Part shown: positions 7,901 through 54,456 of the stretch, piece after piece
Numbering within the stretch: the first letter of the stretch is position 1
Layout of the letters: each line of letters opens with the position of its first letter
NCBI RefSeq assembly: GCF_026914265.1
Contig: NC_069130.1
Span: forward strand, 75,809,070-75,873,069
Direction: 5' to 3'
DNA length: 64,000 nucleotides
Source of the DNA: Mya arenaria
Taxonomy: Eukaryota; Mollusca; Bivalvia; Myida; Myidae
The notes under the pieces: generated by a model
Database searches by the model: none
Told to the model about the DNA's origin: nothing
Seen by the model: the letters and a program-made list of their open reading frames with translations, nothing else
Position numbers and translations under genes: made by a program

Positions 7901-10834
7901 ATTGTATTATTATAAAAATCCACCTAATTTAAAGGAACTAGCCACCAGATGATCCCAAAATCAGTAGATACAGTATTTCCTCAAAGCAAGCCTAAAATTA
8001 TCAATACGAGCTTATATGATACCGATAATGCATCACTTCACATGATAAAAAATATTTTGTCGCCGTCTCAGCTGAGTTTACTCGTTTAAAATAGCGCACA
8101 GTTGTTTATTGTGTGTGTATTTACCATGTGAAAGTCACGGGAATAGTACACAGATACAATTAAGGACGCTATTTTTTTAATTTACTGGTATTTACGTGGT
8201 AGACAAACTCAGTAGATTTTGAATAGTAAAATACGCAAAAACTGCGAAAGATACATGTGTCGTAAGCGATGTTAAACACCAGTAAATAAACTTCAATGTA
8301 CACAACGAATACAATTTTATGTAAGTTTTTGACAATTTTCTTTTTTGCAAGTATGTTTTCATGTACGTACTCGATCTTATTTTTTGACTTTCGTTCACCT
8401 ACTAAAGCCGACCCTGACTGATATGTTCATCATATATTTCCATATCTTTCACATCTTTCATTTAGGATGGGTTAAGACCATTTAGTATAAATATGTTTTA
8501 ATCTACGTTGAAATGTATAGTATCAGTCGTTTTCTCTTAACATCATTGGCAGTTTTAAGCTCAATGACAGAGGATTTGTATATAACGATTCGAATATTCA
8601 CTTTTAAATAATACCGAAACGAGGCTTCAATTAGTATGTCGTCAATGGCACGATAAATGAAAATGGTATTTTGCCACTTTTCATCCCTTATTTTTTATTA
8701 ACTCTTTTTAGCTGGTTAATAATTCTTGACATTCAGTTTGGTTGAGAGAGCAAGTTCTTTGAAAACAATGGTAAACTCCACACAGCAAACGACTGTGGTT
8801 TATTTTTGTGATTTATACCTTCCAAATAGGAGACAATTTCCAACTTAATGTCTCTTAGCAATGTCAATATATTTAGATGTTTTACGGAGCCAATGCAATC
8901 CGCGGATAACATGAAGACACGTGAATTAAATGAAATAACTACTTTGAATGTGCTTATTAAGAATGTCTTAAGCAAACTGCAAAACTTCATATGCAAATCT
9001 GTATGAAGCTCAACCTAATCTGATTGTTGTTGGCTTTTTTAATTTAAAATCAAAGTACGTTAGTTGGCATTATATTAAATATTAGACATGTAATAAATGC
9101 ATTATATGAAGGAAGAAACAATATAATAATAATACCCTAATAACCAAACAAAAGTACGTGTACAGCGAATGTTATCTTTTTACAGAAGTAACAACCAACC
9201 CTGCATTAGCTGTAACCGAACAGTGGCATTCGATCCTTTACGCCGTAGCTGGAATTCTTCCAGCTTTACTTGGAACGACGTTTATCGTGATTCTCTTTCG
9301 TCGATGCAAACATCATGGTAATTGTTCAGATTGAAAAGTACACATTGCAGTCAATACCAAACGTACTGTTCACAATCATTTAATTAATTGACAATTATTG
9401 TCTAGTTCATTTCTAGGTCGAAACTCAAGTTGAACAATTTGTGATCGCTGTCTTCCGGTTGGCATTGTTTTTACTCAACGAGGGTTGCCTCATTTCTTAT
9501 TTAACTGTGGCAGGAGGCATGCCATTGGTAATCAACTATCAACTTTAAGAAATTTAAGCCTTTAATTAGTGTAGTCTCTCTATATATGTGATCCGTGTGG
9601 CCACTACAATGCTCAAATCAGCACAAACTGTCCCTGCATACAAAAACTGATGATGAAAGTTTGAGAAATTACAACCTATTTGGCAATGTAATGTCAATTA
9701 GCAGGACACTAGATTGAAGGGAAAAGAATTCTGTTAAATTGATATTGCAAAACCAATGTCATCAAATCGATTATACGATGAAAGTCACATGTTAAGCAAC
9801 CAAGAAATCTAATCGGAACGTTCCTGCCATTTTCCTTTTTAAAACAACCTCGGATGTATGCCGGTATATAATAATAATGATAATAATAATAAAACATACG
9901 ATATTGCACACAAATACTCCAAGTTGATGTGCATCAATAATCCTTGGATATATCAGCAATGCAATCAGAGAAATCAACTCATTCTATAATGCTATTCTCG
10001 AATATTGTTCATCTCACCATGTTCACAAGATAAGTAAAATAATTTAATTTTTGACATTCACTTGTGTGCAATTGCATTCAGGTGAGAAGTAAAATGCCGT
10101 CTAGTCCTTAGCAAATTACAAATGTTTTATTTTGTTTTAAGTTCCAAGAAAACCGTAAATACATGATTTATAAAATTATTTATATATTTGATACAGAGTC
10201 TGAAACGATTCTAAGCCGTAGAAGAACTGTCGTTAGAGAGCAACATTTGCATTTGCATGATGTTGTTGAACCTAATTTGGATACAACTGCCCTTCACAAT
10301 CTAGTAAGATTTCTGTTATGTATAACAATCTAATGTAATGAACTATAATAACTATATTGGTGCACCTTAGAATTCCCGATTTAAGTATATCATTGTAACA
10401 TAATGTTAATAAAAAGCGTTTGAACCCGTGAACATGTAATTGGTTCTTGTTTAAAACACTTATTCAAATACATCGTCTCACCCTCTATATAAATGACCCT
10501 TTCGGTTTGGTTAAGAGCAATCACGTGATCAGAACGAGGTGTAATCGTTACACCGATCGTAGCTGAAATTGCTGGTGGCTTTTAACCATGCATTTTGTGC
10601 AAAGTGTTTATATTCATTTTATTGGAAACAGTTTATACACATTTGTAGAGAGGAGTGTCTGCAAGTGCAGTCGAGAACCAACCAGTACCATCACCATTGG
10701 ATATGGAAGAAACCGAAGACCGTTTATACGAAAATGTTAGCCACTACGAAAATGTGGTAACCTTATCCGACCACCGAGACCGTCGAACAAACGAACCCGA
10801 TGCAAATTGTATTTACAATTTCTATGCTATTTGA
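4943..10834 (+). CDS. Gene A: four-Ig transmembrane receptor with tyrosine-motif tail (563 aa)
   Basis: Eight exons join in agreeing phases without a stop: 4943-4982, 5905-6222, 6474-6773, 6960-7265, 7381-7683, 9186-9317, 10197-10303, 10649-10834. All have GT/AG borders. Residues 1-13 (MDKYCQYHLISGL) plus the start of exon 2 form a hydrophobic signal peptide. Residues 14-119, 120-219, 220-321 and 322-422 are four Ig-like domains, one per exon between phase-1 introns, with N-glycosylation sequons. The fourth has the clearest Ig pattern (CEVRNAIPAP then a CC pair). The transmembrane segment is about residues 439-460, followed by basic RRCKHH. The tail carries RLYENVSHYENV (Tyr529, Tyr535). SHYENV fits the ITIM pattern S/I/V/LxYxxV/I/L, and YEN fits a Grb2-type YxN site. 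This is probably a cell-surface recognition receptor; its ligand is unknown. It is near-identical to D from exon 4 through exon 6. Confidence 0.85.
7684..9185 (+). other. Gene A intron 5: site of the missing Ig5 and Ig6 exons
   Basis: This 1.5-kb intron separates the Ig4 and transmembrane exons. Its last part (about 8700-9180) matches the B intron between Ig6 and the transmembrane exon. The first part contains nothing like the Ig5 and Ig6 exons of B. I see no coding sequence. The same intron in D (42378-43872) is near-identical, so the loss (or never-gained state) predates the A/D split. Confidence 0.7.
9806..9893. mobile_element. MITE terminus with ATA microsatellite (gene A intron 6)
   Basis: The sequence around cggaacgttcctgccatttt and aacaacctcggatgta matches one end of an inverted-repeat element seen complete at 57121-57467. 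An imperfect ATA/ATG trinucleotide run follows. Only one terminus is recognisable. Confidence 0.55.
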
Positions 10835-15442: not shown

Positions 15443-16754
15443 TGAGAGGCTCTGTCTGTAATAACTCAACATACATAATAATTGAATAATAATTTTAGAC
15501 TGAAGTTATTAGAAATGTATTACAAGTAGCCTTTTGATTAATATATACACGTGTATAACTGCAAAACTATTATAGCAACATACAACAACACACAATAAAG
15601 AACAATTCAGATATGCACGTTCTAACAATAAACGCACTAAGACTGTAAGCAAAACTAAAATGACAATTCCAAATTACAAAAATCTGACTACATAATTAAA
15701 TTTAGATCGGATACTCAATAATCTTTATATAGCGTGAATATAGTTTTCATCGGGTGCGTTCGTCCGACGGTCTATATGGTCGGGTGTTGTGTCCACATAG
15801 TCGTAGTGGCTAACATTTTCGTACGAACGGACTTCGTTTTCTTCCATATCCACAAGTGATGGTACATGTTCGTGCTCGAAAGCACGTGCAGACACTCCTC
15901 TCTACAAATGTAAATACAACTGTTTTTAATAGATAAAATGCAAACAGTACTTTCCTAATCCTTCTTCAATAATTTAAGAACAAGACTTTCGAGTACACGC
16001 TTACACACTTGTTGCACAAAATATCTTGATTTTGAATGGTGTAAAGCCTCTTGATTTTGAATGATTTAAAGCTACTAAAGGTTCCAATCACTGTAACGAT
16101 TACACGTACCTCGCTCTGATCACGTGAATGTTCTAAACCAGTCGGAAAGAGTAATTTATGTTGAAAGTTATATATATTTGAATACGTGTATTACACAAGG
16201 ATCAATTGCAATGGCAAGGGTTCAACCCGTTTTTAATCACGTTATCATACAATGATAAACTTAAATCAGGAATCCTGAGGTCCAACAATATATCTATGGT
16301 AATCTTAAAGACATTACATTTGATTGTTACAAATTTAATAAATCTTACTAGATTGTGAAGGGCAGTTGTCTCCACATCAGACTGAACAACATCATATACA
16401 TGAATACTTTGCTCTCTAACTGCTGTTCTTCTTGGGCGTAATGGCTTCTCATACACTGTATCAAAGATAAATATGCTTAAATGTTTGTAATTTGCAAAGG
16501 ACACGACAACATCTAAATGCCATTGCACTCAAGCGAACGTCAACTATTCATGTACAGTTCTTCCTTTGTGGACATGGTGAGGTAAACAATATTCAAGTAT
16601 GGAATTATAAAATATTTTGATTCCTCTGATTGCCCTGCTAGTATATCAAAGGATTATTGATAGACATTAACTTAGGTGTGAGTATGTGTGTGGAATGTAA
16701 TAAATACGTTCTATTCATGTGTCAGTAAAAGGAAAGCAATAGATACCTTGGTAA

Positions 16755-16849
16755 TAGGAAGACCTCGGTCATTTTCCATTGAAAACAACGTTTATCGATT
16801 TAGCAGATAAACTTAAGGACTTTACCGACTTACTTTATTTATACAATTA

Positions 16850-16904
<55 letters not shown>

Positions 16905-16953
16905 GTAGTAGTAGTATTCTTAGTATTATTATTATTATTATTATTATTATCGA

Positions 16954-17011
<58 letters not shown>

Positions 17012-17068
17012 CCGGCATACATCCCTGATTGTTTTCGATGGGAAATGACCGAAGTGTTCCGATGGGAT
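16755..17068. mobile_element. MITE with ATT-repeat core
   Basis: Left end (cggtcattttccattgaaaa) and right end (gttttcgatgggaaatgacc) are inverted copies of each other. Between them lies about 160 bp of (ATT)n with a few GTA units. The same family occurs at 49160-49478 with a TTC core, at 57121-57467 with no simple-repeat core, and as single ends in A and D. It lies between the transmembrane and tail exons of B. Confidence 0.75.
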
Positions 17069-20000
17069 TTGTAGAGCTCGGTTGGTCAATGTGCTTCTTT
17101 AGCTTCCAGTGTATAATCGATTTAGTGAAATTGGTTTTGGAATATCCATTTAACAAGTTCCCTTAGATCTAGTGTCCTGCTGATTAACATTACAAATATT
17201 GCCAATCTAGTTGAATATTCTCAATCTTCAATCATGATGTTTCGTATGCAGGGAAATATTGTGTGCTGATTTGAGCAGTGTAGTAGATTAACACACGATT
17301 CACATACATGTAACCATGAATCTTAAATTTGTTAGAGTCGACATTTGATTACCAATGGCAAGCTTCCTGCCACAGTAAAATGAGAAATGAGTCTACCTTA
17401 GCTAGACTGAGTAAAACAATGTCAACGGGAAGTAGACGATCACAAATAGCTCACCTCTAATTTCGATTAACTGAGTTAGATGAACAAGAACACAATTTAT
17501 TCTGATTAATGACCACATAATATTTATTATTTCTATGAATTTGTAACTTCAATCTGAACAATTACCATGAGGTTTGCATCGACGAAAGAGAAACACTGTA
17601 AACGTGGTTACAAGTAAAACTAGAAGTATTCCAGCTACCACGTAAAGGACCAAATGCCACTGTTGGGTTACAACTAGTTCAGGGTTGGTTGTTGCCTCTG
17701 CAATTAGATAACATTTGTTCTACACGTACTCTAGTATGGTTATAACGGTTTCATGATTATATTACTTCGTCCATCTTTACATGCATTAATTGCATTCCTT
17801 TTTAATATAATGGCAACTAACATACATAGAAAAGTGTTGTTGTTTTTCAAATTACATATTTAAAAAAAGCCAACAACAATCAGATAAGGTTGAAATTTAT
17901 TCAGAGATACATATGTAGTCTTGCAGTTTGCATAAATCAATTAACACATTGAAAGCAGCGATCTCATTTATTTCAAGGGTCTTCATCCGCGGAGGGCAGT
18001 GAAACAGTAAAACATATCAATATCATTTCTAAGAGACATTTAGATGGAAATTGTCTCGTATTCGGAGTGTATAAATCAGTCATAAATCACAGATGTTAAC
18101 TGTGTGGATTTGATGAATGTTTTCAAAGAAATATATCTCTAATGCAAACAGTTGAAAGGAGTGAATAAAAATAAGGGATGCAATGTACAAATATTATTTT
18201 CAGTTATCGTACCATTTATGCCTGGTTATTATATTATTATTAACTTTTTATTATTATCTAAATGCTAATTACCAACCATCTGTCCTTGAGCTTGAAACTG
18301 TCAAGGAATTTCTCAGAAGCTCCTTTGGTTTCCAAGTGTTGCAAATGTACCTCTTATCACCATCTCCTGTATAATTCAATGTTAACAGGCATTCCTCTGC
18401 TTTGATACAAGCCTTTATTTCAGTGCTATTTTCATCTTCCCACCAAAGATCCCATTGCCCAGGATTATTCAGGTCATCAACGAAACATTTGACGGTCACC
18501 GTAAAATTTGGAGGTAAAACAACAGGCGATGTCGTGTTCAAATACAGAGTCGGAATATCTGAAATGTAGTGTACAATTTGTTGAGAAAATAACAAACGAT
18601 TACACAGTTAAAAACAACAACAGTTGTTATATATTTTAATAGATATATTTTATCTTATTGTTACTAAACACATGAATAAGGATATGGTCATATCATCAGG
18701 ACATTCCGAAAGTCGGACAGTTTTGAGAATAGAAAATACATAAAAGTAGCATTCGCTGTTTAATTTAAGTGTAAACGAAAGTCCAGAAAATGAGTAAGGC
18801 CAAAACGTACCTGAAAACGAAATGTTATAGGTTTTGTTTAAATGAGATGGGAAATTATTGCATGTAGTTGAACATGTAATTGTTCCCCCAGCCATGTCTT
18901 TAGTTACGTTGTAAAGCACGTTGGAGAAAGAACGGTAACTCCCATTTTTAGCATCAGCCCAACTGTTTATATGAACGTAACGCAAGCTATCGGTTCCACT
19001 TGACCATTCAATTGTACAAGGCGGATTGGATTCATCAGTTGCACAAGACATATTTAAGAAACAGACAGAAACATTGTTGCTATATTCAAGTATTTTGTTT
19101 AAGGAAATCGAAAGCTGCGACGGTGGATCTGAAAACAGATAGGACATGCTCTTAAACAAACCGTTTTCAATTCAGAATAAACAAAAATATAACGTTTATT
19201 TTTCAATGATACATACTCATAAATTAGATAAAAACAAAATAGTTATCTTCCAATAATTGAATTGTTTACCACCGAAAATATAGGTAAATTAAATTTGTTA
19301 TGCCTTCTCTTATTGTTCATTTATAACTTTTTCCATTAGACGTGACTATATAAACAAAACGGTCTTAGTTCAACTTACATTTTATACTAATGCTTTTGCA
19401 TACTGAATCATCTTTAAGACCAAAAATGTCTTTGCTTTTCCTATCGCAGCACATTTCGTATGCATTCCAATTCTTGTTAATCTTTGTCACCGTTGCTGTG
19501 CTAGTAAATGTATTGGAAGATCCATTAAATGAATCAGTTTGTTGAGCATCAGATAGCAATATTTTCCCAACATGTATTTCTATTAACGGAGCTGGGATAG
19601 CATCGCGCACTTCACATATTGCTGTCGAGCTTTCTCCATCAAGGAATTCAGGAACTGTCAGCATAGGCGGATTACCTTCCTCTGAAATTGACTCACAACG
19701 TTTAATATTATACAAGAAATAATGAGTTTTACTTCCACAAAATTACAAATCATAGCTTGTCATAATGTATCTCCAATTTGATTACACTGGAATTGAGACA
19801 CAATAATTTAACAGCATTCATTATTATACAAGATATAATAACCTCAGAATAACAAATCATTGCTTGTAAGTATGTATATCAATTTTGCTTACCGACGCTA
19901 CATAGAATGCCGTGCACTTCATATGATGTTTCAAAGGCTACATTAGAAACCTGACATGTCACATTACGTCTTGAGAGTCCATCCATTTGATGAGAAACGT

Positions 20001-20409
20001 TATGGATTCGGTACAACCCTTTATTCCCTTTGCTTTCAACGTGAGGGAATGGTTTCTTTCCAATAAACAGTTGTACTGGTTCTGTTCCGTATTCAGTTTT
20101 GCAATAAACGTCTGAACCTTTATAAACATATATGCATTTCGTTGTGTTGAAGTCAGGATACTTTGGACCAAGGAGTGGATAACTCGGTTGCTCTGCAAAG
20201 CAACAAACAAAAATATTCATATTTATTGCCTTGTAACTTTAAAAAATGACAATGAAAACGATTGGTTTATCAGAATAGCTGCTCATGCATTTGTTTTATC
20301 TGGAAACGTAAATTGTCCCATTGTACTTGTATGTCGCCATTTATTTCAAGCTGACGAACCAAGGCATTACCAATATATACCAGTACTCGGTAATGTAAAA
20401 GCATGGTAC

Positions 20410-20672
20410 CTAAAATATGAAGGTGCACAGAATCCGTGTTGCAACCTAAATTGCAACTCAAAATACCCTTCCTACATCTTTTTATTCGAATCTATGTATA
20501 GTTAATATGTACAAATTACTAGAATCTCTTTCCTCTATGTAAGATCGTTTTCGTAGCTGTATTTTGTGATGGTTTTTCTTCCATGTTCGTTTATTGTATC
20601 TTTTGCGCTGTAGATAATAGTGTCCCAGTTCTGTGCGGTAACGTTTGCTTAGGACGTCAGAACTGGCTTAAA
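20410..20672 (-). pseudogene. Ig2 exon relic of gene B
   Basis: The 3' half is recognisable against C (RTWKKN, SNLYILTI, then the phase-1 donor at the same place). It contains TAA and TGA in the reading frame of the other paralogues and a scrambled 5' end with no good acceptor. Confidence 0.7.
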
Positions 20673-23299
20673 TTTTCAAAACAGTAAAATTTGTCAAATT
20701 GTTATTTAACTGTTTGAAACATGTTGGTTTGTATGATATGATCATTCGCATATTTAGCTTTTAACCATTAACATTTTAGTTTCATTCAACGTCCAAAGAA
20801 ATGAATATTCTAAGGTGTTTTATGAAATACTAGCCAACACATATTATAGTACAGAAGCAGTTATATGGACATGCAAAGTGGCAAAAACCTACATATCAAC
20901 ATAGTGTAAGGACACGTAAATGAATCAACCCCAAAATGATCACGAACAGGAAATCCATAACAACACAAACTATCAAAAGTATTGAAGTTACCGCATGGAA
21001 TCGGTCAACGATATTTACCTGTAATATTTAAAGAAACCATGCGTGTTCTAATTGTTGTGTTTGTTGAACATCCGGCGTAGAAGGCAGATCTGTTGTATTC
21101 TATTGAAGCCGTCCATTTTAAAAAGAACGACCCATCTTCCAAATATCTTAATATTTTGCCCGTGCATTGTTTTGAATGTTGTACCCCCGTCCACTTTGTA
21201 CTTCCATTCTACGTCACATCCCCAAGGAAATAATGGTGTCGCTTTCAGTGTAACCTCCCTGTTCACAAAAGCTGGCCCGACCACTGATATCGTTCCATAC
21301 TGGTACCCGGCTGCACAGATGTACCCAAACACAGCTGTAATAGAGCTTGCAAATCAATTACAAATACGCTTTTCACCCTCAATAACGATATTTGACAAGC
21401 TATCGAAAAATAAGTAGAATAATATGTATGGACGTTCACTGTTTTGAGGTTTAAAGGGTTGTTTCAATGCGTTGTTAAACAAAAGAGATTGCAACACAAG
21501 CTATAGCAATGATCAGCGTGATAATAACAAAAAACATAGAGAAACATTAAGAACAACCTTAAAATATGAACGTTATCTAAATAACTAATATCAATGAAAT
21601 TTCTTTTACATGTATCTCTATATAAAGACGAATTTATTTTGTCGCAAAAAGACAAACGATTTCTAATATACTATAAAGAACAACGTTTTTTAACTTATAC
21701 TTTCTACTTCAACAACTTATAGTATTCTTTAACTCATAGTTGTTAACAGATCATCGTTTTTGACGTAAACGACAGGTACAAAATTATAATTTTTACACAA
21801 TGTTATTAAAACGGAATCGCCTACCTAGATAAAATATCAGAGTATACGGACAGCAACTATCCATCACACCTTTAGAGCACAATGTACAAAGTGCATTACT
21901 ATGTAGCGGTTGTGAGACATGTGTCACTATCTAGGTCTTTAAAACGGAAACTGGTATTCTCGCGCTTTCAGTAAACAATAATAGTCCAATAGCTGCCATT
22001 CTTTCAAAATAATTAACAATTACACATGTAACCTCACAATCGAATGCAATTATCTGCCCGTTTAGACTTAAGCAAACCACATTACGCCTCAAAGTCCGTT
22101 CGTTGTATCTAGCCTGTTGCCACTTCCGGTTCTAATAGGCAGACCCCAATACATGTAGAGGATTACCACCGACTCCTTGGAGGCCTGGCTACGAACAAAT
22201 AAAGCACATTGTTAATAAAAGCTGGTCTTTAATGAAAGTTATAGTTGATTTGAACAAATCTGAAAAGTAAAGACCCACAGTCAGTTTGTCTTCTTTTAAG
22301 CCTCAGCATTGTACCTATTCGTCCTTAGATCCATCTAACGCCATTTGAAATAAGGAGTCTGCATTTAACATGTATACATATAAACCGTCGGTGGGCTTAT
22401 TTAGGCTTTTAGCACAGCAACACAGTTGTATATTTACTAACATTTACTAAGAATATGCGTTCACCATCTCGCGTTTGCTATCATCAAATATATCCCTCCG
22501 CAATAACTGTTTTTAAATTATTTTTTTTAAAGTTTACTTCATTATTTTTTAAATCTTCACCAGATTTGCGAAAACCTATTAATAGTCAATAAGTGCTAAC
22601 AACTGATTGCATTTAATTATATAAAATGGTCAAATATATCCATTTTTGAAAATAACAGTAATGATTAGTGTAAAGTTATATCCCACGCTCACTCATCGAA
22701 AACATAATGTTTGCCTAGGTAATATTTTCTGTTGCGATTTACAATCACCAATGCAATAAAGATTTCTGTTGGTGTTGTTGTTATTGTTGTTGTTGTTGCT
22801 GCTGTGTTGTTGCTGGTGAATTATCGAGGAAGAATCAATTTGCTTTCGACCTCTCCTGTATTGAAAGGAAATGGAAAAGTAGTGACTTTATACAAAAACT
22901 TGTGGCTTAACGTCGTGTTGGTAATACAATGTACACTTTGCGAAAAAGTCACTAGGAATTGCTGTATTTCAAAATTTACTTTTGTATATTAATTACTGCT
23001 TTAAATGACGAAAATAGTTGAGCACATATCACACTTCTGATTTCACACAGCTGCAGGCTAGGCATTTTTCACATCGCGTTTCCTTCAACTCACAATGGCA
23101 ACTATATCCCTACATAACCAACGACGTAGTACAAACGGTTTTGTATATTTCATCGCTGACACAAATACCCTCAAATGTCTAAAAAAAATGAATTCAAGTG
23201 TTACCATTGTTGTATCATTTCCGTGTCAAAGTAACATGTATCATCATTATACAACAAAGAATGAAACACTATATTGTTTTTAAATTCATTCTTTTATTT

Positions 23300-25599: not shown

Positions 25600-26204
25600 T
25601 TACACTGATGCATAATGGTACCCAGGTTGTTCGACAGCAGGTCCCTGTGTCGAAAAGAACTCAATTTCAGCATACTCCGTCGGCGTATTCTTTTTCCATG
25701 ACGGAACTCTGGCGTTGGCTGCCTGTAGGAACTTAACGTCCAATTCAGCGTATTTGAGGCATTCTTCATCCTGTGGGTTCTGGAAATTAAGACATTGCAC
25801 TACGGTTACAATCAGTGAGAATTAGTATTACCGATTACGAATCACATAGGGAAAGGATCTTTGTATTTAAACACGCATGGCGTCACCTTTTGAAGTCTAT
25901 GTTAAATTTTTAATTTTGAAGACAAGAATGTTCGATACCTTACGGAAAATTGCACACCTGCCTTACTGCTTTCAATTATGATGTTCTCCATAAGAGTAAA
26001 ACTTACTGTAGTTTGCTACCCAACACACCTTACTTTTCTGGTCAAGCTACTTTGTACTAATGTTTTGTCATTTGCATTAATTATCTCGCAAGGTGAAGTG
26101 AGTTACCTGCGTTTCAATCCTCTGTGTGGCCGCCTGCCTATGCACGACAGCATACTGGACTCCTTCTGTTGCTATATGTAGCACTCCATTGTCCGATGAG
26201 GTGT
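25600..26204 (-). CDS. Gene C tail exons encoding ITIM and ITSM motifs
   Basis: The exon at 26204-26107 encodes residues ending in IETQ and contains VQYAVV. The exon at 25779-25600 opens with NPQDEE, contains LKYAEL then TEYAEI 26 residues later, and stops at TAA 25602-25600. The ITIM-then-ITSM order is the arrangement seen in vertebrate PD-1 and several SLAM or Siglec relatives. No paralogue in this window has these exons. Confidence 0.85.
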
Positions 26205-29200
26205 CTGTTTTTGAGGTAATCATTAATGGCTATTATTTATAAAATCACATTTGGAAGGAAATAGTATATTCTGTTATTGCATAGAGAACCTGAACAAATA
26301 GAATAAAGCCGGATAAGATTCCGAATTACTGTCTTTGCATTTGTAAATGGCTTTAATAACTATTTTATAAAATTCAATAAATTTGTTAACTTGATACCAA
26401 ATATTTACTTAATATTTACCCAGTGCCATTAAACCGGGTTAATGTTTAAACCTTTTGCTACTGAGCTTGTTTCCGTAGCTTTTCGCATAAATATTGATCC
26501 AAAGCTAGAATTAACAGGAAACAAATTATATTGAAAGCGTTATATTGTTAAAGTGTTTTCGCTTTCTTTATCTATTTTTTTTTTGGTTACATAAACAAAA
26601 TGTTGATAATTGTATCAAATGAAATACCATTCGAAGGTAGATTTAAAGAGTATTCATGGATTTTTAATTTTAATAAGTTTATATGACTAATTTGAATATT
26701 TCATTATTAAGATGTTTTGATACTTTATGTTTGTTCTGAAAGGCCTAGTAAAGTATCTTACAGGATAAATCAAAAATGTAAATGGCACTTGCTTAACAAA
26801 AATTAAAATAAATCAAAGGAACACATTTTATATTTTCACCTAGGTACATGATTGAATTGTTAAAGAACGTGTTAAGAACTTATACAGGAACGTATAGGCA
26901 AACTTAAAGATAAAAACTTACCACTGTGATTTTCAACACTGAAATAAGAACGCAACAATTATATATCTTTTTAATACATATAATAATATGGCTTTGATAA
27001 GTTCAAATACCGTCAAACGAAACTCTGTCTTATCGGAAAGACTTTGCTAAATACGTTTCATTATATATCAACGATTGAAATATATCCAACTTTGCAACAT
27101 TCAATAGATATTTGAGATTCTCAATCACTAAATCACTAAATCAAATTCATACATTTCTACTGTGTCAGTTGTGTTGACCTTCAGCCGTTTCAGATATATC
27201 CATCCTAAAAATAATATATTTTCATATAATCAACATATAGTGTGGGTTTTTTTTCAAGTGTCTTTGTAGATATAATAAATAGTTTGTGATAGTTGAATAA
27301 TTTGAAAGTATTATAAAAATGTATGCCCATTCTAAACACTTACGTCTAAACGTACAAATCATTTATGGACCGTTTCAAAACTACACACCCTGACTCTCCT
27401 GCAGAAAATTAAATTGCATGCGGTATAATATTGTAGAAGATGAGAGTATTCAGGAAATATAATCCTTACTTCCAATAACAAACAGGATGCAGAGTCCACA
27501 TATAACACCTGCTCCGATAAGTACATTGATGACAGGAAATCGGAATGTATGAATGTCAGTTTCGTAGGATTGACTTCCTGCAATGATCGTATTTTTTAAA
27601 TAAAATTGTTATATCATAATCAACAAACATAAAATGCATTTCATCCACTAAAAATATAACCAATATTTCAGCTGTTAATTACGAACCATCTGTTCTTGCG
27701 CTTATAACGGTCAAGGAATTTTTCAAAAGCTCGTTTGTTTTCCAAGCGTTGCAAGTGTATGTATTTTCGCCATCTCTCGCATAATAAAGTATTAACAGGC
27801 ATTCATCTGTTTTGTTACAAGTCTTCATAACAGTGCTATTCTCATCTTTCCACGAAAGCGTCCATCGTCCTTTAGCATCGCTGTCATCAACATAGCATTT
27901 GACGGTCACTGTAATATCCGGATATAAATTAACAGGTGATGTCGTGTTCAAATTCATAGTCGGGTCACCTAAAATGTATAAAATGTTGAGAAAGTAACTA
28001 AGTAAAATGAATACACAGTTAAGATATATCACTTATTATACATTTTCAGATGGCTTTTATCGTATTCATGTGGAAAAACCACCTTGAATGAAAGTATGTA
28101 TCTTCCAATAATACAGACATTCACCAATGGGTTTAATTTATTATGCATTACCTCGTTTAACATTACTAACCTTTACCATTACGCGTGTGTTACACAATCT
28201 TCACGCTCTTAAACTTACATTTCATATTAATGTGTTTGCAGACTGACACATCTTTAATACCAATATTATATTTTATTTTCCTGGAGCAGCACATTTCTTT
28301 TCCATTCCACGTTTTGTCAGCCTTTGTCACCTTTGCTAAACTTGTGAACGTATGAGATGATCTATTAAATGAATCGGTTTGTTGAGCATCAGCCAGTAAT
28401 ACTTCGTCAACGTGTATTACTATTTCCGGAGCGGGGATAGCATTGCGCACTTCACATATTGTTGTCGAACTTTCTCCATCAAGGAATTCAGGAAGTGTTA
28501 GGATAGGCGGGTTACCTTTCTCTAGAATTGAAAAACAAAAAATTAAAAGCTAATTATACTGTGTCAACGTGAAGTTCCATTGCCGGAGCTTGAAAAACAT
28601 TGCAAACTTCACGTATTGTTGTCGTCCTTTCTCAATCAATGAATTCAGGAACGATGAGCACGGGCAGGTTACCCTCATCTGGAATTGAAACACAATAATT
28701 AATTAGCTAGTAATACTTTGTCAACGTGTATTCCTATTGCCAGAGCTTAGATAGCATTGCGCACTTTACATATTGTTGTCGAACTTTCTCAATCAAGGAA
28801 CTCAGCAACTATAAGCACGGGCGGATTACCTTCTTCTGGAATTGAAACACAATAATTAATCAGCTAGTAATACTTTGTCAACGTGTATTTCTATTGCGGA
28901 GCTTGGATAACATTGCGCACTTTACATATTGTTGTCCTACGTTCTTCATCAATGAATTCAGGACTATTAGCACGGGCAAGTAACCTTTCCCTGGAAATGA
29001 AACACAATAATTTAACAGCATTCAATATTATACAAGATCTAATGATTTTAACCTCTACAAAATAACACATCATAGCTTGTCATTATGTGCATCCTATTTG
29101 CTTACCCACGTTACAGAGAATGCCGCGCACTTCGTAGGGTGTTTCAAGGGCTACATTAGAAACCTGGCATGTCACATTCCGTCTTGACAGTCCATCCATA

Positions 29201-31053
29201 TGTTGATGAACGTTAAGAAATCGGTACAATCCTTTCTTCCGTTCGCCTTCGGCAAGAACAAATGAATCATTACCCAGTAAAAGTACTACTTGTACGGGTT
29301 CTGTTCCATTGTTTGTTTTGCAATAAATATCGGAGCCAACATAAACATAAATACATTCGGTTGTGTTAAAGTCAGTGGAAGTTGGACCATCAATTACTGG
29401 GTAACTCGGTCGCTCTTCAAAAAACAAAAAAAAAATTTTTAAATCATTTGTAATACCATTTAACCATTCAAAATGTAAATCTAAACTGATGGTTTATCAC
29501 ATTGCTGTCCAATTATTAATTATCTGGAATCATCAATTATCAACTTATATAACCCATTTTTATTCAAAGCTGAACAAAGCTGATGTACCGAAAACAAAGA
29601 AAAAACAGTATATAAGGGTCAGAACATTCGATGAAGTAACAGCAAGGTACCTGGTGTATGAAGCTGCACAGAATTCGAGTAGCTATCTGAGTTGCACTTT
29701 ATAATATACGTTCCTTCATCTTTTTCTCCAAAGCTAAATATAGTCAATATGTATAAATAATCAGAAACTTTTTTCTCTTCGTAAGACCCTGCTCGTGGCT
29801 CTATGTCCGTGACGCTGTTTTTCCATGTTCGTCCCGTGTTTGTTTGGTGCTGTATGGAATAGTCAGACGGAAAATATCCAAGTTCAACGCCGGTGCCGCG
29901 AACAACCGGGCTTAGAATCTTGAGAGCTCCACATGTTCCAACAATATCTGTTAATTATTACTTATATATTAACGTAAATGTCAGAAAAAAGTGATATTTT
30001 TATTTGTGATTGCCCAGGGCCCATAACTACAAACAACTCTGGAAAGTGGATATTAAAACTTTCGAATTGTCAGATTTAAACAATGAATTAACAGAATAAA
30101 TTATTTGTAAAAGAATTTAAATCAATTTGCGTAAACTGTTTAATTAGTACTTTTCATATTTTTAGCTTATTATAATTTAAGAGTTTCTTTTATTCAAATA
30201 AAAAAGAAAAGACAGAAAAACAGGTGTTAGTGAATACAGGCCCAGAAAAAATATGAGTACACGTGAAACTACATCGATAGGCACAGTGGCAAACAACCTA
30301 CCATAAAAGTATAAGAAGAATTTAAAAAATAAAAACCCGTATGGCAAACAAGGAGGAAACAAAAACACACATACTTTATATCATAAATTTTAACATTTGG
30401 GTTGCTTCCTTAAAACAGTTTTACCTTTCAGATGTAAAGGTACAAAGCGTGTTCTAATCATTTCGTTTGTTGAACATCCGGCGTAGAATTCAGATTTGTT
30501 GTACTCAATTGAAGCCCTCCATTTTAAAAAGAATGACCCATCCTCCGAATATGTTGTAGCATTTTGCCCATGCATTGTTTGTAATTGTGTACCACCTTCC
30601 ATTATGTACCTCCATTCTACCTGACATCTCCAAGGGTAGAGCGGTGTCGCTTTCAGTGTTACCTCCCTGTTCACAAAGGCGGGTCCTACCATTGATATAG
30701 TTCCATACTGGTTCTCGGCTGCACAGACGTAGTCAACAAGAGCTGATTTAGAAGTAGCACATAAATTACAAATACACATGTCACACTCAATAACGGGTAA
30801 AACTGTAAATACTATAATTAAGTATTATTATGAAAAATCATATAGTTAATTAACAAGTTGGACACTATAAGGCTAAAGCAATTAAGCATCCGAAATTATC
30901 TGAACATTCATAAACGTAGGAATCTAAAATAAAAACGAAATATAAAAATAAAATAAACGTTACATTGCTTTTTCTATTTATTTTAGCATTAACATTAATT
31001 TACATACAAGAAATAGTACGAAGTTGAAGTAGTAGTAGTAGAAGTATTAGTTT

Positions 31054-31103
<50 letters not shown>

Positions 31104-31505
31104 AAGTCTGTGTGGCTAATAAGTTAATTTCGGTACTTGTTCGCCATGCGGAGTTATGTTGGCCTACTGTCATACTCTGTCAGCAAGACGCCTTTATCAC
31201 AAATCATGTCTCTGTTATAAAAAGAAATACGGCCTTTCATCCCTTACACCTTAAAATGTTAGTTCCCAGAATTATCCACTGCGCAATGCATCTAAAATAA
31301 GAACGTTTATGTCACTGATTTTTACTTTTAGTAGTAGTAGCAGCAACAGCAGCAGCAGCAGTTTGAGTAGTAGTAGTAGTAGTAGTAGTATTAGAAGTTT
31401 TTGGGTAATTTGAGAATTAATATTATTAACAGGGTTTTACTTATGCAACATACCTGAAGCAAGTACGGCAAGTTGAGCACATATAAACATCCATTGTCGT
31501 GGCAT
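25600..31505 (-). CDS. Gene C: five-Ig inhibitory-type receptor with ITIM/ITSM tail (671 aa)
   Basis: Eleven exons join in agreeing phases without a stop: 31505-31454, 30742-30425, 29947-29651, 29414-29106, 28521-28219, 27968-27687, 27577-27470, 27204-27153, 26938-26922, 26204-26107, 25779-25600. Signal peptide: MPRQWMFICAQLAVLAS. Ig-like domains lie at residues 18-123, 124-222, 223-325, 326-426 and 427-520. The last (VTVKC, WKDEN, TYTCN) is a clear Ig fold, and B's Ig5 is missing. Transmembrane segment about 534-555. Tail: VQYAVV (Tyr597) and LKYAEL (Tyr622) fit the ITIM consensus, TEYAEI (Tyr648) fits the ITSM consensus TxYxxV/I, and HYASV (Tyr668) ends the protein. In vertebrates such motifs recruit SHP-1, SHP-2 or SH2D1A-type proteins. 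An inhibitory role here is inference. The 17-bp and 52-bp tail exons are supported mainly by phase agreement. The Ig3 acceptor (GAAG) is weak. Confidence 0.82.
28563..28995 (-). repeat. Three tandem partial copies of the Ig4 exon in gene C intron
   Basis: Starting at 28990, 28835 and 28678, three about 158-bp units each repeat the Ig4 acceptor (tttcaattccag) and the first about 115 bp of that exon (PEFIDxE, IREVxNxIxAP), stopping near the codons for HVD. They contain stops and have no donor. The intact Ig4 exon follows at 28521. Gene E has one such unit at about 52034-51919, so at least one copy is ancestral and C has added more. Confidence 0.8.
31020..31392. repeat. GTA trinucleotide runs in gene C intron 1
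   Basis: Runs at 31024-31102 and 31328-31391 of GTA/AGT with a few GCA units. The same intron of gene E holds a run of about 870 bp. Confidence 0.9.
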
Positions 31506-39648: not shown

Positions 39649-42600
39649 ATGGATAAGTATTGTCGGTATCATTTGATTTCTGGTTTCGGTAAGTTGTTCG
39701 TTTGTTTTTCTAACAACTGATATTATATAAGTTATGTCAATTTTTTACTTTTGTAGTTCTCGCGTTCTTCAAACTTGGATGAGGGTCTATGGTAAAAGAA
39801 TGTAAAGTAGACGACGAGTACTAGCAGTTATGCTAGAAGCGAAAGTAGGTTTGTTTAATGTGTTCTGGTGGTTTATTGAAATATAACGGTGCATTATATC
39901 TCGATAAACTCATCGTTTAAAACACTGAGTTAATCGAAAAAGTAATTTCACTTTTTTCTCAGAGTTTAATTGTTTCATTGTTACAATAGTAACATAAACA
40001 CTTTAAATGCCGGGAATAACATGCAATGTTGTCATTAAATTTCGGTTCCAGTATGACGTTATTTGGTTAAAATTGTCCTATTTAATATCAATTGAATTGT
40101 GCTTTTGTTAAATTATAGGCATGGAATAAAAAGATTTTTTTTATATCGGGTTAAGAATACAAAAGTAAATATTTCGCTTGTGGCAAAACCACCTGTGTCA
40201 TATTACTTTTGGTGCTCAATCGGTGAAATATATTGCATATCTTAAACTGAAACAACGAAATATACTCCATGCAATTGATACAATATTTTGAAATCGTTTT
40301 TAGAACTCGTCTTAGTACCTGAATGAGTTATAAACTCAACAATCGAAGTGGCAGACGAGCTAAATGACCAGCCTGTTATATATCGAATTAGCATCGATTT
40401 GTATGGCAATCATGGTCAAAAGTCGGGCATTGCTATTTTACGTGTTGTTGTTTTATTTTAATGTCGGATTGAATATCGATTCCTGACGTGTGTGTTTTTT
40501 TTTCAATTGCAAACCCTAACTCCTGCGTTGATTAAAATAACGATATTAATATTCCATTCATTCATCATGTGCTATCTTTGTGGATACATTGTGGCTCCCA
40601 TCCGATATTTCAGCTCTTATTGGTTACTTCTGTGCAGCAGAGAACAATTATGGAACGATATCTTTGGTCGGGCCAGTTTTTGTGAACAGGGAGGTAACCC
40701 TGAAAGTAACACCGTTCTACCCTTGGGGATGTGAGGTAGAATGGAAATACATAATGGAAGGTGACACACGATTCCAAACAATGAATGGGCCAAATGTTAC
40801 AAGATATTCGGAGAATGGGTCATTCTTTTTGAAATGGAACGCTTTGAATAAATACAACGGATCTGAATTCTACGCCGGATGTTCAACAAACACAACAATA
40901 AGAACACGCTTAATACAGTTAAATATGAAGGGTAAATAACGACTAACATTCCAAGATATTAACCAATATCATACTTCACACTTATTATCAAAGTAAAATT
41001 TAAAGTGTTTAGTACATTTTTGTTTACTTTTTAATTGGGTTTTATTTGAAGCCTCTTAGAATTAAGGTGTTAAGGTGTATATTGCGTATTGTTTTTGCTA
41101 TCAATGAACATAAGGTAGACAAATGTTTTGTTATAATAATACATTATTTAAGTTATAATATACAGATATTCCTCGCCAATGTGGGGCTGTCGTTCTTCTT
41201 AGCCCGGTTTTTCGCGGCGCCGACGTCAAACTAGGATATTTTCCGTCTGACGCTGCTATATCGCCACATACATTACATAGACGATTATGGAAGAAAAACA
41301 TCGAAAATATACAGTTTCACAACGGCCATCATTATGTAGAGGAAATAGTATCTGAATATTTGTACATATTAACTATATTCCACTTTAATGAAAGAGACGA
41401 GGGATCATATAGTTTAGAGTGCAATGCAGTGGATAGCACGGAACCTGTGCAGCTTTATATTTCAGGTACCTTAATTGTAAATCATCAATAATTCCGGCAA
41501 TTAGTTTATTATGTAGGCTTGAAATTAAAACATGAGTAATATAAATGTAACAATGATAATTACATAAGCAGTAATGTAAAGTACATTTTCATCAGCACTT
41601 GAAAATATGTTGTCATATGCAAAATGATTTTAATGAGTTGTGTTATTTTTCAGAGCGACCGAGTTATCCAGTCCTCGGTCCACAGTACCCCGACTTTAAC
41701 ACAACACAATGCATTTACCAGTATGCAGGCTCCGATGTATATTGCAAAACTAACAATGGATCAGAACCTGTTAAAGTATTACTTATACTTGGACATGATT
41801 CATTTGTTCTTCCTGAAAGCAAACAGAACAGAGGGTTGTACCGAATCAATAACGTCCATCAACAAATTGCTGGACTGTCAAGACGGAATGTGACATGTCA
41901 GGTTTCTAATGCAGCCCTTGAAACACCCTATGAAGTGCATGGCATTCTATGTAACGTAGGTACGCAATTAGGATATGCATACTTACAAGCTTTGATTCGT
42001 TGATTTGTAGAGGTTAAAATTATTGGATCGTATATACTATCGAATGCTGTTAATTCATTGTGTTTGATTTCCAGAGAAAGGAAGCCTGCCTTTTCTCACA
42101 GTTCCCGCATTCCTTCATGGAGAAAGTTCTACATCAATTTGTGAAGTGCGCAATGCTATTCCAGCTCCGGTTATTGAATTTCACATTGACAACGTCTTGC
42201 TAGCAGATGTTCAACAAATCGATTTATTTAATATATCTTCTCATACGTTTACCAGCACAGCAACGATTGCAAACGCTAACAAAACATGGAATGGAAAGCA
42301 AATGTGCTGCACCAGGAAAAGCACGTACAGTTTTGGTTTAACAGATGTGTCAGTATGCAAAAACATTAGTATGAAAGGTAAGTTAAATCTATATTTGATC
42401 GGTTTCGAGTATAAAGTAGTTAAATGTTAGAAACGTATGGCATTCTGTCGATCTTGTTGAACATGCATTGCATGCAACTGAATAATGAGAACAATTAAAT
42501 AATCAAATATACCAAAACGGTCCAATTGGACATAATAGTTATATAAAATGCACCTACATTCGAACTGGTCAATCATTTGAAATTATTAACTTTGTATTAT

Positions 42601-45458
42601 TATAAAAATCCACCTAATTTAAAGGAACTAGCCACCAGATGATACCAAAATCCGTAGATACAGTATTTCCTCAAAGCAAGCCTAAAATTATCAATACGAG
42701 CTTATATGATACCGATAATACATCACTTCACATGATAAAAAATATTTTGTCGCCGTCTCAGCTGAGTTTACTCGTTTAAAATAGCGCACAGTGGTTTATA
42801 GTCTGTGTGTAGCATGTGAAAGTCACGGGAATAGTACACAAATACAATTAACGACGCTATTTTTTAATTTACTGGTATTTACGTGGTAGACAAACTCAGT
42901 AGATTTTGAATAGTAAAATACGCAAAAACTGCGAAAGATACATGTGTCGTAAGCGATGTTAAACATCAGTAAATAAACTTCAATGTACACAACGAATACA
43001 ATTTTATGTTAGTTTTTGGCAATTTTCTTTTTTGCAAGTATGTTTGCAGGTACGTACTCGATCTTATTTTTTTACTTTCGTTCACCTACTAAAGCCGACA
43101 CTGACTGATATGTTCATCATATATTTCCATATCTTTCACATCTTTCATTTAGGATGGGTTAAGACCATTTAGTATAAATATGTTTTAATCTACGTTGAAA
43201 TGTATAGTATCAGTCGTTTTCTCTTAACATCATTGGCAGTTTTAAGCTCAATGACAAAGGGTTTGTATATAACGATTCGAATATTCACTTTTAAATTATA
43301 CCGAAACGAGGCATCAATTAGTATGTCGTCAATACCACGATAAATGAAAATGGTATTGTGCCACTTTGCATCCCTTATTTTTTATTAACTCTTTTTAGCT
43401 GGTTAATAATTCTTAACATTCAGTTTGGTTGAGAGAGCAAGTTCGTTGAAAACAATGTTAAAATCCACACAGTAAACGACTGTGGTTTATTTTTGTGATT
43501 TATACCTTCCAAATAGGAGACAATTTCCAACTTAATGTCTCTTAGCAATGTCACTATATTTAGATGTTTTACGGAGTCAATGCAATCCGCAGATAACATG
43601 AAGAAACGTGAATTAAATGAGATCGCTACTTTCAATGTGCTTATTAAGAATGTCTTAAGCAAACTGCAAAACTTCATATGCAAATCTGTATGAAGCTCAA
43701 CCTAATCTGATTGTTGTTGGTTTTTTTAATTAAAAATCAAAGTACGTTAGTTGGCATTCTATTAAATATTAGACATGTAATAAATGCATTAAATGAAGGA
43801 AGAAACAATATAATAATAATACCCTAATAACCAAACAGAAGTACGTGTACAGCGAATGCTATCTTTTTACAGAAGTAACAACCAACCCTGCACTAGCTGT
43901 AACCGAACAGTGGCATTCGATCCTTTACGCCGTAGCTGGAATTCTTCCAGCTTTACTTGGAACGACGTTTACCGTGCTTCTCTTTCGTCGATGCAAACAT
44001 CATGGTAATTGTTCAGATTGAAAAGTACACATTGCAGTCAATACCAAACGTACTGTTCACAATCATTTAATTAATTGACAATTATTGTCTAGTTCATTTC
44101 TAGGTCGAAACTCAAGTTGAACAATTTGTGATCGCTGTCTTCCGGTTGACATTGTTTTTACTCAACGAGGGTAGACTCATTTCTTATTTAACTGTGGCAG
44201 GAGGCATGCCATTGGTAATCAACTATCAACTTTAAGAAATTTAAGCCTTTAATTAGTGTAGTCTCTCTATATATGTGATCCGTGTGGCCACTACAATGCT
44301 CAAATCAGCACAAACTCTGTTAATTCTGTTAAATTGATATTGCAAAACCAATGTCATCAAATCGATTATACGATGAAAGTCACATGTTAAGCAACCAGGA
44401 AATCTAATCGGAACGTTCCTGCCATTTTCCTTTTTAAAACATCCTCGGATGTTTGCCGGTATATAATAATAATAATGATAATAATAATAAAACATACGAT
44501 ATTGCACACAAATACTCCAAGTTAATGTGCATCAATAATCCTTGGATATATCAGCAATACAATCAGAGAAATCAACTCATTCTATAACGCTATTCTCGAA
44601 TATTGTTTATCTCACCATGTCCACAAGATAAGTAAAATAATTTAATTTTTGACATTCACTTGTGTGCAATTGCATTCAGTGAGAAGTAGAATGCCGTCTA
44701 GTCCTTAGCAAATTACAAATGTTTTATTTTGTTTTAAGTTCCAAGAAAACCGTAAATACATGATTTATAAAATTATTTATATATTTGATACAGAGTCTGA
44801 AACGATTCTATGCCGAAGAAGAACTGTCGTTAGAGAGCAGCATTTGCATGTGCATGATGTTGTTCAACCTAATTTGGATACAACTGCCCTTCACAATCTA
44901 GTAAGATTCCTGTTATGTATAACAATCTAATGTAATGAACTATAATAATTATATTGGTGCACCTTAGAAATCCCGATTTAAGTTATCATTGTAACAATGT
45001 TAATAAGAAAGCGTTTGAAACCGTGAACTTGCAATTGATTCTTGTTTAAAACACTTATTCAAATACATCGTCTCACCGTCTACATAAATGACCCTTTAGG
45101 TTTTGGTAAGAGCAAAGACATGATCAGAGCGAGGTATAATCGTTACACCGATTGTAGCTGAAATTGTTAGTGGCTTTTAACCATGCATTTTCTTGCAACA
45201 AGTGTGTAATCGTGTACTCGATAGTCTTATTTCTTAAATTATTAAAAAAGGATTAGGAATTTCACAGTGTTTATATTCGTTTGATTGAAAACAGTTTATT
45301 TACATTTGTAGGGAGATGTGTCTGCAAGTACAATCGAGAATACACATGTACCATCACTTGTGGATATGGAAGAAACCGAAGACCGTTTATACGACAATGT
45401 TTGCCACTACGAAAATGTGAATACCCTAACCGACCACCGAGATAAACGTGTCGGATAA
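39649..45458 (+). CDS. Gene D: four-Ig transmembrane receptor, paralogue of A (550 aa)
   Basis: Eight exons join without a stop: 39649-39688, 40614-40931, 41166-41465, 41654-41959, 42075-42377, 43873-44004, 44794-44900, 45312-45458. Lengths equal those of A exon by exon except the last. Signal exon: MDKYCRYHLISGF. Four Ig-like domains, transmembrane at about 439-460 and tail RLYDNVCHYENV (Tyr529, Tyr535). Compared with A, the first motif is YDNV, and the residue two before the second tyrosine is Cys, so the ITIM-like SxYxxV is lost while YENV stays. The C-terminus ends at DHRDKRVG: an extra 5 bp relative to A shifts the frame and removes A's last residues (NCIYNFYAI). Introns 3 to 6 look more than 95% identical to A by eye, implying recent duplication or gene conversion. 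Confidence 0.85.
44395..44490. mobile_element. MITE terminus with ATA microsatellite (gene D intron 6)
   Basis: Same end sequence and position as the one in gene A at 9806-9893. The trinucleotide run differs slightly in length. It was inherited through the duplication. Confidence 0.55.
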
Positions 45459-48764: not shown

Positions 48765-48859
48765 TTAGATCGGATACTCAAAAAATTTATATAGCGTGAA
48801 TATATGAATACTTTGCTCTCTAACTGCTGTTCTTCTTGGGCGTAGAAGCGTTTCATATA
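48765..48859 (-). CDS. Deletion-fused last exon of gene E
   Basis: The exon begins like the first tail exon of B (RPRRTAVREQSIH) and continues directly into the last bases of B's final exon (ttcacgctatataa) in another frame. The deletion therefore removed the end of one exon, the intron and nearly all of the last exon, including the twin tyrosine motifs. The fused exon stays open to TAA at 48767-48765. Confidence 0.75.
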
Positions 48860-49159
48860 CTGTGTCAAAATATAAATGATTAAATGTTCGTATTCGCAAA
48901 GGACACGACGGTATTATGTCACTCATCTACTTGCCATTGCACTCAAACGAACGTCAACTATTCGTGTATTTTATTTCTTTTGTGGACATTGTGAGGTAAA
49001 CAATATTCAAGTATGGACTTGTAAAATATTTGGATTCCTCTAAATGCACTGCTAGTATATTCAAGGAATATTGATAGATATCAACTTAGGTGTGAGTATG
49101 TGTGTGCTATGTAATATGCAGTTTATATCCATTAAAAGGAAAGCAGTAGATTTCTTGGC

Positions 49160-49371
49160 AATAGGAAGACTTCGGCCATTTTCCATCGAAAACAACCTTA
49201 AACGTATATGGATTCAGTAGTTAAACCTTTAGGACTTTACTTACTTTATTTATACAGAGGAATATTATTTATTAGTGCAATAAAAAACTTCACTGGGAAT
49301 CAATTTGAACTTGATAATACAAATAACACGTTCAAACAATACAATTCATTGTTCTTCTTCTTCTTCTTCTT

Positions 49372-49402
<31 letters not shown>

Positions 49403-49478
49403 TTATTATTATTATATACCAGCATACATCCGGGATTGTTTTCGATGTATAATGACCGAAGTGTTCCGATTGTATTTC
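49160..49478. mobile_element. MITE with TTC/TTA-repeat core in gene E
   Basis: Ends cttcggccattttccatcga and cgatgtataatgaccgaagt are inverted copies. The core includes (TTC)n at 49351-49400 and (ATT)n to 49415. Same position relative to the gene as the 16755-17068 element in B, with a different simple-repeat core. Confidence 0.75.
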
Positions 49479-50384
49479 TAGAGCTCGGTCTGTTGATATG
49501 TTTCTGTAGCTTCAATTGTATTATCAATTTAATGACATTGGTTTTGCAATATCCATTTAATAAGTGTATCTTCCCTTCGATCTAGTGTCCTGCTAATGGT
49601 CATTACAAATACTGCCAAACTGGTTGAATATCTTCAAACTTTAATCATGATGTTTCGTATGCATGGAAAAGATGTGCTGATTTGAGCAGTGTAGTAACAC
49701 ACGCTTCACATACATGTGACTAACATACCCAAGAATGAAAAATTTGTTAAAGTCGCCATTTGATTACCAATGGCATGCCTCCTGCCAAAGTAAAATGAAA
49801 AAAGAGTCTACCTTAGTAAGACTGAGTAAAACAATGTCAACGGGAAGTAGACGATCGCAAATTGCTCACATTTAGTTTCGATTAACCGAGTTAGATGGTC
49901 AATAACTCATTGTATTGTGATAAATGACCAGATAATTTTTTATTGATTTGAATGTCTAATTTTCAATAAGAACAATTACCATGAGGTTTGCACCGACGAA
50001 TGAGAAGCACTGTAAACGTCGTTACAAGTAAAACTAGAAGTATTCCAGCTACGGCGTAAAGGACCGAATGCCACTGTTGGGTTACAACTACGGCAGGGTT
50101 AGTTGTTGCTTCTGCAATTAGATAACATTTCTTGTACACGTACTCTAGTTTGTTTATATTGTTCCGTCCATCTTTCAATGTAATAATTGCATGTTTTATA
50201 TTCAATAAAATGGTAACTAACGTACCTCAAACAGTTTTTTTAATCAATGAAATATTTATTTTTTTAAATCCAAAAACAATCACATTAGGTTTAGATTCAT
50301 TATGAGTTGCATATGTAAGTTTGCAGTTTGCTAATGTCATGCTTAAATAATACATTGAAAGCACAAGAAATATGAATGCTGGCG

Positions 50385-50450
50385 AAAATGTATGAATGTC
50401 ATTTTCGTGGGAGTTCCTACCTTCAATATTATGTTTTAAATAAAATCGTT
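50385..50450 (-). pseudogene. Vestige of a C-type transmembrane exon in a gene E intron
   Basis: aatgtatgaatgtcattttc and the following bases match the start and acceptor flank of C's transmembrane exon (27530-27600). The hydrophobic part is missing. Sequence below about 50365 matches the B intron instead. The junction marks where C-like and B-like halves of gene E meet. Confidence 0.65.
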
Positions 50451-54074: not shown

Positions 54075-54146
54075 TATGGCATCAGTAATAGTAGTAGTAG
54101 TAGAAGTAGTAGTAGTAGTAATAGTAGTTGTAGTAGTAGTAGAAGC

Positions 54147-54210
<64 letters not shown>

Positions 54211-54336: not shown

Positions 54337-54427
<91 letters not shown>

Positions 54428-54456
54428 AAGTAGTAGTAGTAGTAGTAGTAGTTGTT

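Follow-up and report, generated by a model that had tools for sequence, protein, structure and literature searches.

An immunoglobulin-type receptor gene with an ITIM/ITIM/ITSM tail in a two-tail multigene family of the clam Mya arenaria

In a stretch of 64,000 nucleotides from the bivalve Mya arenaria (RefSeq assembly GCF_026914265.1, contig NC_069130.1, positions 75,809,070 to 75,873,069 of the forward strand; referred to as the window, with positions counted from its first letter) we analyzed gene C, which encodes a membrane receptor of the immunoglobulin (Ig) type and corresponds to LOC128203156 (best protein match isoform X2, 97% identical across the full length of the query). The gene is located on the minus strand, as are all of its features given here. 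Its 11 exons join in phase to a sum of 2016 nt, coding for 671 amino acids and a stop, with AG/GT borders at all introns and without any internal stop or frameshift, and thus the type I membrane protein of 671 residues proposed in a first-pass annotation could be confirmed. Exon 1 (31454..31505), placed by splicing and matched in the related genes E, F and G, encodes the signal peptide and is followed by the Ig domains D1 (exon 2, 30425..30742) and D2 (exon 3, 29651..29947), domain D3 (exon 4, 29106..29414, based on splicing and the NCBI model), the C2-set-like domain D4 (exon 5, 28219..28521, also in the NCBI model; PF08205 with 15.2 bits, below the cut-off) and, next to the membrane, the V-set domain D6 (exon 6, 27687..27968; CD47-like profile PF08204 with 21.4 bits at a cut-off of 21). 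Exon 7 (27470..27577) is the transmembrane exon of the tail type designated T1, and its homology with genes E and F, which carry a second tail type (T2), stops at 27544. The cytoplasmic exons 8 (27153..27204, 52 bp) and 9 (26922..26938, 17 bp) are both part of the NCBI model and present in gene G, the former in frame and the latter including its splice sites. Exon 10 (26107..26204; splicing, NCBI model and gene G) bears VQYAVV at 26143..26160, matching the immunoreceptor tyrosine-based inhibitory motif (ITIM), and exon 11 (25600..25779), the last exon of T1 genes, bears a second ITIM, LKYAEL (25741..25758), and TEYAEI (25663..25680), which matches the immunoreceptor tyrosine-based switch motif (ITSM). 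This is the order described before, as read from the translation of gene C. The fourth tyrosine site YHYASV, not a strict ITIM, forms the C-terminus of the protein.

The NCBI model P0001 (LOC128203156 isoform X2, 651 aa) uses the same 11 exons including the ones of 52 and 17 bp, and gene G, a second T1 gene about 110 kb from gene C, has kept exon 6, the transmembrane exon and the exons of 52, 17, 98 and 180 bp with their splice sites and frame. Both findings assign the tail exons to gene C, as had been assumed, and rule out their origin from another gene. The first 426 and the last 224 residues of P0001 and gene C are identical with one residue replacing 21 in between, and exon 6 of isoform X2 is shortened through an internal acceptor. 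The donor of exon 6 in gene C (gttcgt) is weak, and the same donor is found in gene G.

Ig-type Pfam profiles were detected in all seven relatives scanned, in one of them only below the cut-off, and the Ig-like ectodomain is accompanied by a signal peptide and a single membrane span, the latter two judged from the sequence. No sushi domain was found by Pfam in eight proteins of the clam family. The structure model of the 651-residue P0001 was poor (mean predicted local distance difference test score, pLDDT, 46) and gave fold matches over residues 28–223, the comparison by fold covering D1–D2. Taken singly, D1 and D2 superpose on Ig variable or Ig domains with 2.1–2.6 Å over 88–94 residues in several of the matches. 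As antibody fragments dominate the list, these matches indicate the Ig fold and no kinship. A sequence search of the PDB with the whole protein resulted only in weak matches to antibody constant domains with a best E value of 0.044.

A search for relatives across species, as suggested in the first-pass annotation, resulted in 51, 17 and 56 matches in three protein searches, which together represent 56 different proteins, all of them from Mya arenaria. These searches find only relatives sharing exact words of five residues, the third one scoring the 8,000 top word-sharing candidates, and at this sensitivity no oyster, Botryllus FcoR or Hydractinia Alr protein was among the matches. After removal of three isoform duplicates, 23 of the remaining 53 proteins have the T1 tail (ITIM/ITIM/ITSM), 16 have a T2 tail with other conserved tyrosines and 14 have neither. 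T2 genes possess their own membrane exon and show the recurrent sites VYETL, HVYDVV, HYDYVD and ANYIHAI; a phosphorylated YDxV site would resemble the SH2 preference of Nck. The first-pass annotation described the motif tail of gene C correctly and overlooked that related ectodomains also stand on another tail type, which is not of the ITIM kind and is found in four copies within the same window.

Motif patterns alone are weak evidence, as the six-frame translation of the window contains 491 ITIM and 35 ITSM matches. After shuffling the 115 amino acids of the gene C tail, two ITIMs together with one ITSM occurred in 103 of 100,000 shuffles, ruling out a chance origin of the motifs in this tail, and three motifs of either kind in 257. 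Scored with the pattern [SIVLT]xYxx[IVL], 14 of the 23 T1 proteins show three motifs. Two matches each were found in P0002 and P0007, both with VQYAVM at the first site, and in P0008, P0016 and P0042, one in P0015 and P0021 and none in P0024 and P0051. The third site of P0013 ends in L and is therefore not a strict ITSM. In 13 of the 14 proteins with three motifs the tyrosines are spaced by 25 and then 26 residues, with 24 and 26 in P0023, and an alignment of ten hand-chosen exon-11 peptides revealed Y10, Y36 and the flanking L8, L13 and T34 as invariant. Consensus motifs of the types (S/I/V/L)xYxx(I/V/L) and TxYxx(V/I) are hence present in the cytoplasmic tail and conserved.

Exons 10 and 11 of genes C and G differ by 8 non-synonymous and 11 synonymous changes, with a ratio of non-synonymous to synonymous rates (dN/dS) of 0.19 (p 0.0006). 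None of the eight amino acid changes destroys a motif, the change from E to D in TEYAEI being within the consensus. The Ig exons of D1, D4 and D6 together show 68 non-synonymous and 25 synonymous changes with a dN/dS of 0.72 (p 0.18), D3 of gene G being excluded because of two stops and its D2 being without placement, and the two sets of exons differ from each other (p 0.014). For D1 alone 21 non-synonymous and 3 synonymous changes were counted, an excess over D4 and D6 that is not significant (p 0.11). The shuffling, the 25/26 spacing and the constraint on exons 10–11 place the tail of gene C above chance, and the reading of gene C as a mollusc type I receptor with Ig domains and a conserved ITIM/ITIM/ITSM tail is supported. 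The same data bear on the idea that gene C is a dying copy with its motifs being inherited relics. Its neighbours B and E are broken, gene G has a deletion in D2/D3, and gene C itself contains dead D4 fragments, but as it is free of stops and frameshifts and as exons 10–11 are constrained between C and G, we regard this explanation as highly improbable.

In the whole genome, 91 matches to the last T1 exon (all 122 candidates scored, E up to 0.01; 90 once parts of the same exon were merged) and at least 145 to the last T2 exon (150 scored, E up to 0.01; at least 144 after merging) were found, numbers that count exons and not genes, as some of them are fragments or contain stops. Both types are intermixed in the arrays on C5 and on C9, the latter being the contig of the window. 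The C5 array at 41.0–42.0 Mb shows 27 type switches in 42 copies, with as many or more in 45 of 2,000 shuffles, the C16 array at 51.98–52.49 Mb consists of T1 in 16 of 16 copies, none of the matches there being to a T2 tail, and in the remaining six arrays with at least five copies the order of T1 and T2 is indistinguishable from random. The 264 kb around the window contain 11 copies, two with T1 (C and G) and nine with T2 tails. Oligomorphic FcoR loci of Botryllus can swap an ITIM and a hemi-immunoreceptor tyrosine-based activation motif (hemITAM) by splicing (PMC12065747), and T1 and T2 could similarly be splice forms of single genes. We give this possibility hardly any weight, since each of the 11 copies is equipped with a single type of tail exons, with the exception of a cut-off relic in E and F, which rules out isoforms of one locus in the 264-kb stretch.

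The relic itself points to an exchange of tails. Gene C aligns with the T2 genes F and E at 86–88% through exon 6 and the following intron, and the homology ends at the same point in both, 34 nt into the T1 membrane exon. Beyond this junction, which is identical in F and E, both continue as DNA similar to T2 gene B. In gene E the relic (34 nt from the T1 transmembrane exon) was located at 50387..50420 on the minus strand by alignment with gene C, and the old acceptor in front of it reads AAG in F and E versus CAG in C and G. Incomplete and degenerate D4 exon copies directly precede D4 in gene C (28548..28962, minus strand), E (51904–52005), F and G, from which we conclude that these four genes share descent. 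In the simplest reading, F and E would go back to a T1 gene in which a T2 cassette took the place of the original tail in one event followed by duplication, with the T1 relic suggesting the direction from T1 to T2. For gene F, the full splice structure of which could be recovered only in part, the best matches to family exons in a translated search are free of stops, while one of its dead D4 fragments contains a stop.

A similar picture is seen for the proteins, as P0013 (T1) and P0032 (T2) agree by 89% along 522 residues and are unrelated afterwards, and P0020 and P0053 are 89% alike over 332 residues at the protein level. In a phylogenetic tree of D4 (45 rows, 35 labelled) the tail type requires 10 changes compared to a mean of 11.5 for shuffled labels, with 116 of 500 shuffles being as low, and in a tree of D3 and D4 (29 rows) it requires 9 compared to 9.5 (244 of 500). 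Well-supported branches force at least four changes on either tree. Closely related ectodomains with different tails are therefore found in protein pairs, in trees and as a scar in the DNA, and the tail type agrees with the descent of the ectodomains no more closely than labels that were shuffled. Recombination between tandem copies probably swaps the cassette of membrane exon and tail, which would explain that one ectodomain lineage carries both tails.

Besides gene C, the window contains the paralogues A (5904..10831, plus strand; transmembrane exon 9185–9316; best protein match P0039, LOC128246396), B (15728..21335, minus strand), D (40613..45458, plus strand; best protein match P0025, LOC128246387) and E (48798..53791, minus strand), all with T2 tails. 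B is broken by a frameshift in D1 and a stop in D2, and E by stops in D5, a frameshift in D6 and a truncated tail, the last T2 exon of which was not found; both may reflect birth-and-death turnover in the array. In the T2 genes A (9185–10831) and D (43872–45458) the tyrosine of HVYDVV is lost (HLHDVV and HVHDVV) and YEN or YDN sites are present. Long trinucleotide arrays of the (CTA)n type lie between the copies at 54040–54983, 31028–31140 and 16822–17085. Downstream of gene F, at about 75.760–75.761 Mb of C9, its T2 tail is succeeded by tandemly repeated units of about 88 bp each. The sequence YSYAVV occurs at 33747 on the plus strand, and an open frame of 106 codons with unusual composition at 36017–36337 on the minus strand is possibly part of a mobile element.

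A possible effector of the T1 tail is encoded in the clam genome as well. On C9 at 63.17–63.19 Mb, SH2 matches at 63,174,070 and 63,182,077 precede a match to a phosphatase at 63,188,730, which lies on the same strand. The joined SH2 exons are clearly closer to SHP-2 (3.6e-81) than to SHP-1 (7.3e-57). The phosphatase exon alone does not discriminate, as SHP-2 (3.9e-17) and receptor PTP S (4.9e-17) score almost equally. The tandem-SH2 phosphatase is recognized from separate exon matches. Upon ligand binding, a Src-type kinase would phosphorylate the three tyrosines in the gene C tail, on which the tandem SH2 domains of the SHP-2-type phosphatase would dock and damp signalling. Gene C is probably an intact type I receptor of the Ig superfamily, belonging to a T1/T2 multigene family with cassette exchange and presumably acting by SHP-2-mediated inhibition. 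We infer the inhibition, the T2 signal, the ligands and an immune or self/non-self use, and the allorecognition reading is speculation. From the earlier proposal of an inhibitory or allorecognition receptor the Ig receptor and the conserved tail stand, now joined by the SHP-2-type gene, and the term vertebrate-style used there is not to be taken as meaning a first among invertebrates.

T1 might also not be inhibitory and instead provide a platform for adaptors (SH2 proteins of the SAP or Grb2 type) or for endocytosis (YxxPhi sorting), with both tails being variants for adhesion or trafficking. The gene C sites YAVV, YAEL, YAEI and YASV fit YxxPhi as well, 9 of the 23 T1 proteins end with a YxN site, which is preferred by Grb2, and SHP-2 can also act positively. 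We nevertheless consider this unlikely, as the residues at −2 and +3 of ITIM and ITSM are retained in the T1 sites, the 25/26 spacing in 13 of the 14 complete tails could suit a tandem-SH2 partner, and an SHP-2-type gene is present.

Several findings weigh against gene C being an inhibitory receptor in a two-tail family. At least one motif is missing in 9 of the 23 T1 proteins, and the constraint on the tail was derived from one gene pair (C and G) and exons 10–11 only. Between C and G, the cytoplasmic exon 8 has changed 11 times non-synonymously and twice synonymously, with no sign of constraint, and when it is included the difference between tail and ectodomain disappears (p 0.18). The ectodomain of gene C is itself constrained relative to F and E with dN/dS values of 0.57 and 0.48 (p 0.0011 and 0.00006; exons were placed gap-free, and a D3 length difference of 3 bp in F and E inflates their counts), so that diversifying selection on the ectodomain is not supported. 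Regarding T2, a distance of 15 residues separates YxxL/F from YDxV/A in 11 of the 16 genes, which is beyond the spacing of 6–12 in a classical immunoreceptor tyrosine-based activation motif (ITAM), no such pair was found in the other five genes, and 10 of 11 readable membrane segments are without a basic residue, P0045 having a lysine. T2 as an activating partner is therefore not supported, and the clam family seems to work like a two-tail system and not as a proven activating/inhibitory pair. Finally, the NCBI proteins are predicted ones, and chimeric models can arise from tandem arrays, the one case checked at the DNA level being that of C, G, F and E.

With these points in mind, we put forward only as a doubtful extension that the Mya lineage independently built about 230 tail exons' worth of Ig receptors, T1 being inhibitory and T2 a second signalling type, which are cassette-exchanged and form a cell-surface self/non-self system of haemocytes. 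In Mya arenaria, a neoplasia spreads as a clone of cells. Since this transmissible neoplasia is on record for the species (PMC2248247), a candidate cell-recognition repertoire would be directly useful, as it allows cancer cells to be compared with normal haemocytes for expression, for the loss of copies and for the tails in use. If the self/non-self reading were true, evasion by the transmissible cancer would become testable gene by gene.

As a kind, a bivalve Ig receptor with an ITIM is not new because of the reports on oyster CgIgIT and Botryllus FcoR. The oyster papers are cited in a 2025 review, which describes CgIgIT2 as a bivalve membrane Ig receptor with five Ig domains, names an ITAM for CgIgIT and cites two titles that call the signalling inhibitory (PMC11999971). 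CgIgIT1/2 resemble the clam family as bivalve membrane Ig receptors, and no oyster protein was among the word-based matches. For Botryllus FcoR, 53 loci have been described so far. ITIM, hemITAM and core tyrosine motifs are among those possible in their long tails, and such tail motifs are cited for Hydractinia, too (PMC12065747). These are likewise invertebrate Ig receptors with tyrosine-motif tails, but in the same source FcoR combines V-Ig, sushi and two C2 domains at the fuhc locus, whereas the clam proteins have several Ig-like domains and no sushi in the eight scanned. In the open-licence PMC literature, mostly covered by titles and the beginnings of abstracts, no description of the clam family was recognized.

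Among vertebrates, CEACAM1-related genes show a species-specific expansion from less than 5 to more than 100, and CEACAM pairs are reported to be kept alike through gene conversion and recombination (PMC2832619). As in the mammalian CEACAM1 and CEACAM3, kin Ig ectodomains stand either on an ITIM/ITSM tail or on one with other tyrosines, and membrane domains of two kinds occur, but T2 is not a recognized ITAM, and in the clam both kinds are mixed in both orientations with arrays on several chromosomes. Receptors of the KIR, LILR, Siglec and PD-1 type have ITIM/ITSM tails with SHP-2 as expected effector and occur as activating and inhibitory kin, the activating ones often using an ITAM adaptor together with a basic residue in the membrane. 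T2 is different, as this residue is absent in 10 of the 11 readable segments. Beyond the Ig fold, homology of the clam family to CEACAM and to these receptors is not supported. Apparently new features are the scale of the family, its confinement to Mya within the searched database and the two-tail system with its visible exchange scar. If our interpretation is true, the pairing of inhibitory and alternative tails in natural killer and myeloid cells of vertebrates has a counterpart in a bivalve that apparently arose in a single lineage and is at least comparable in size, the step of tail exchange being visible in the DNA of the clam.

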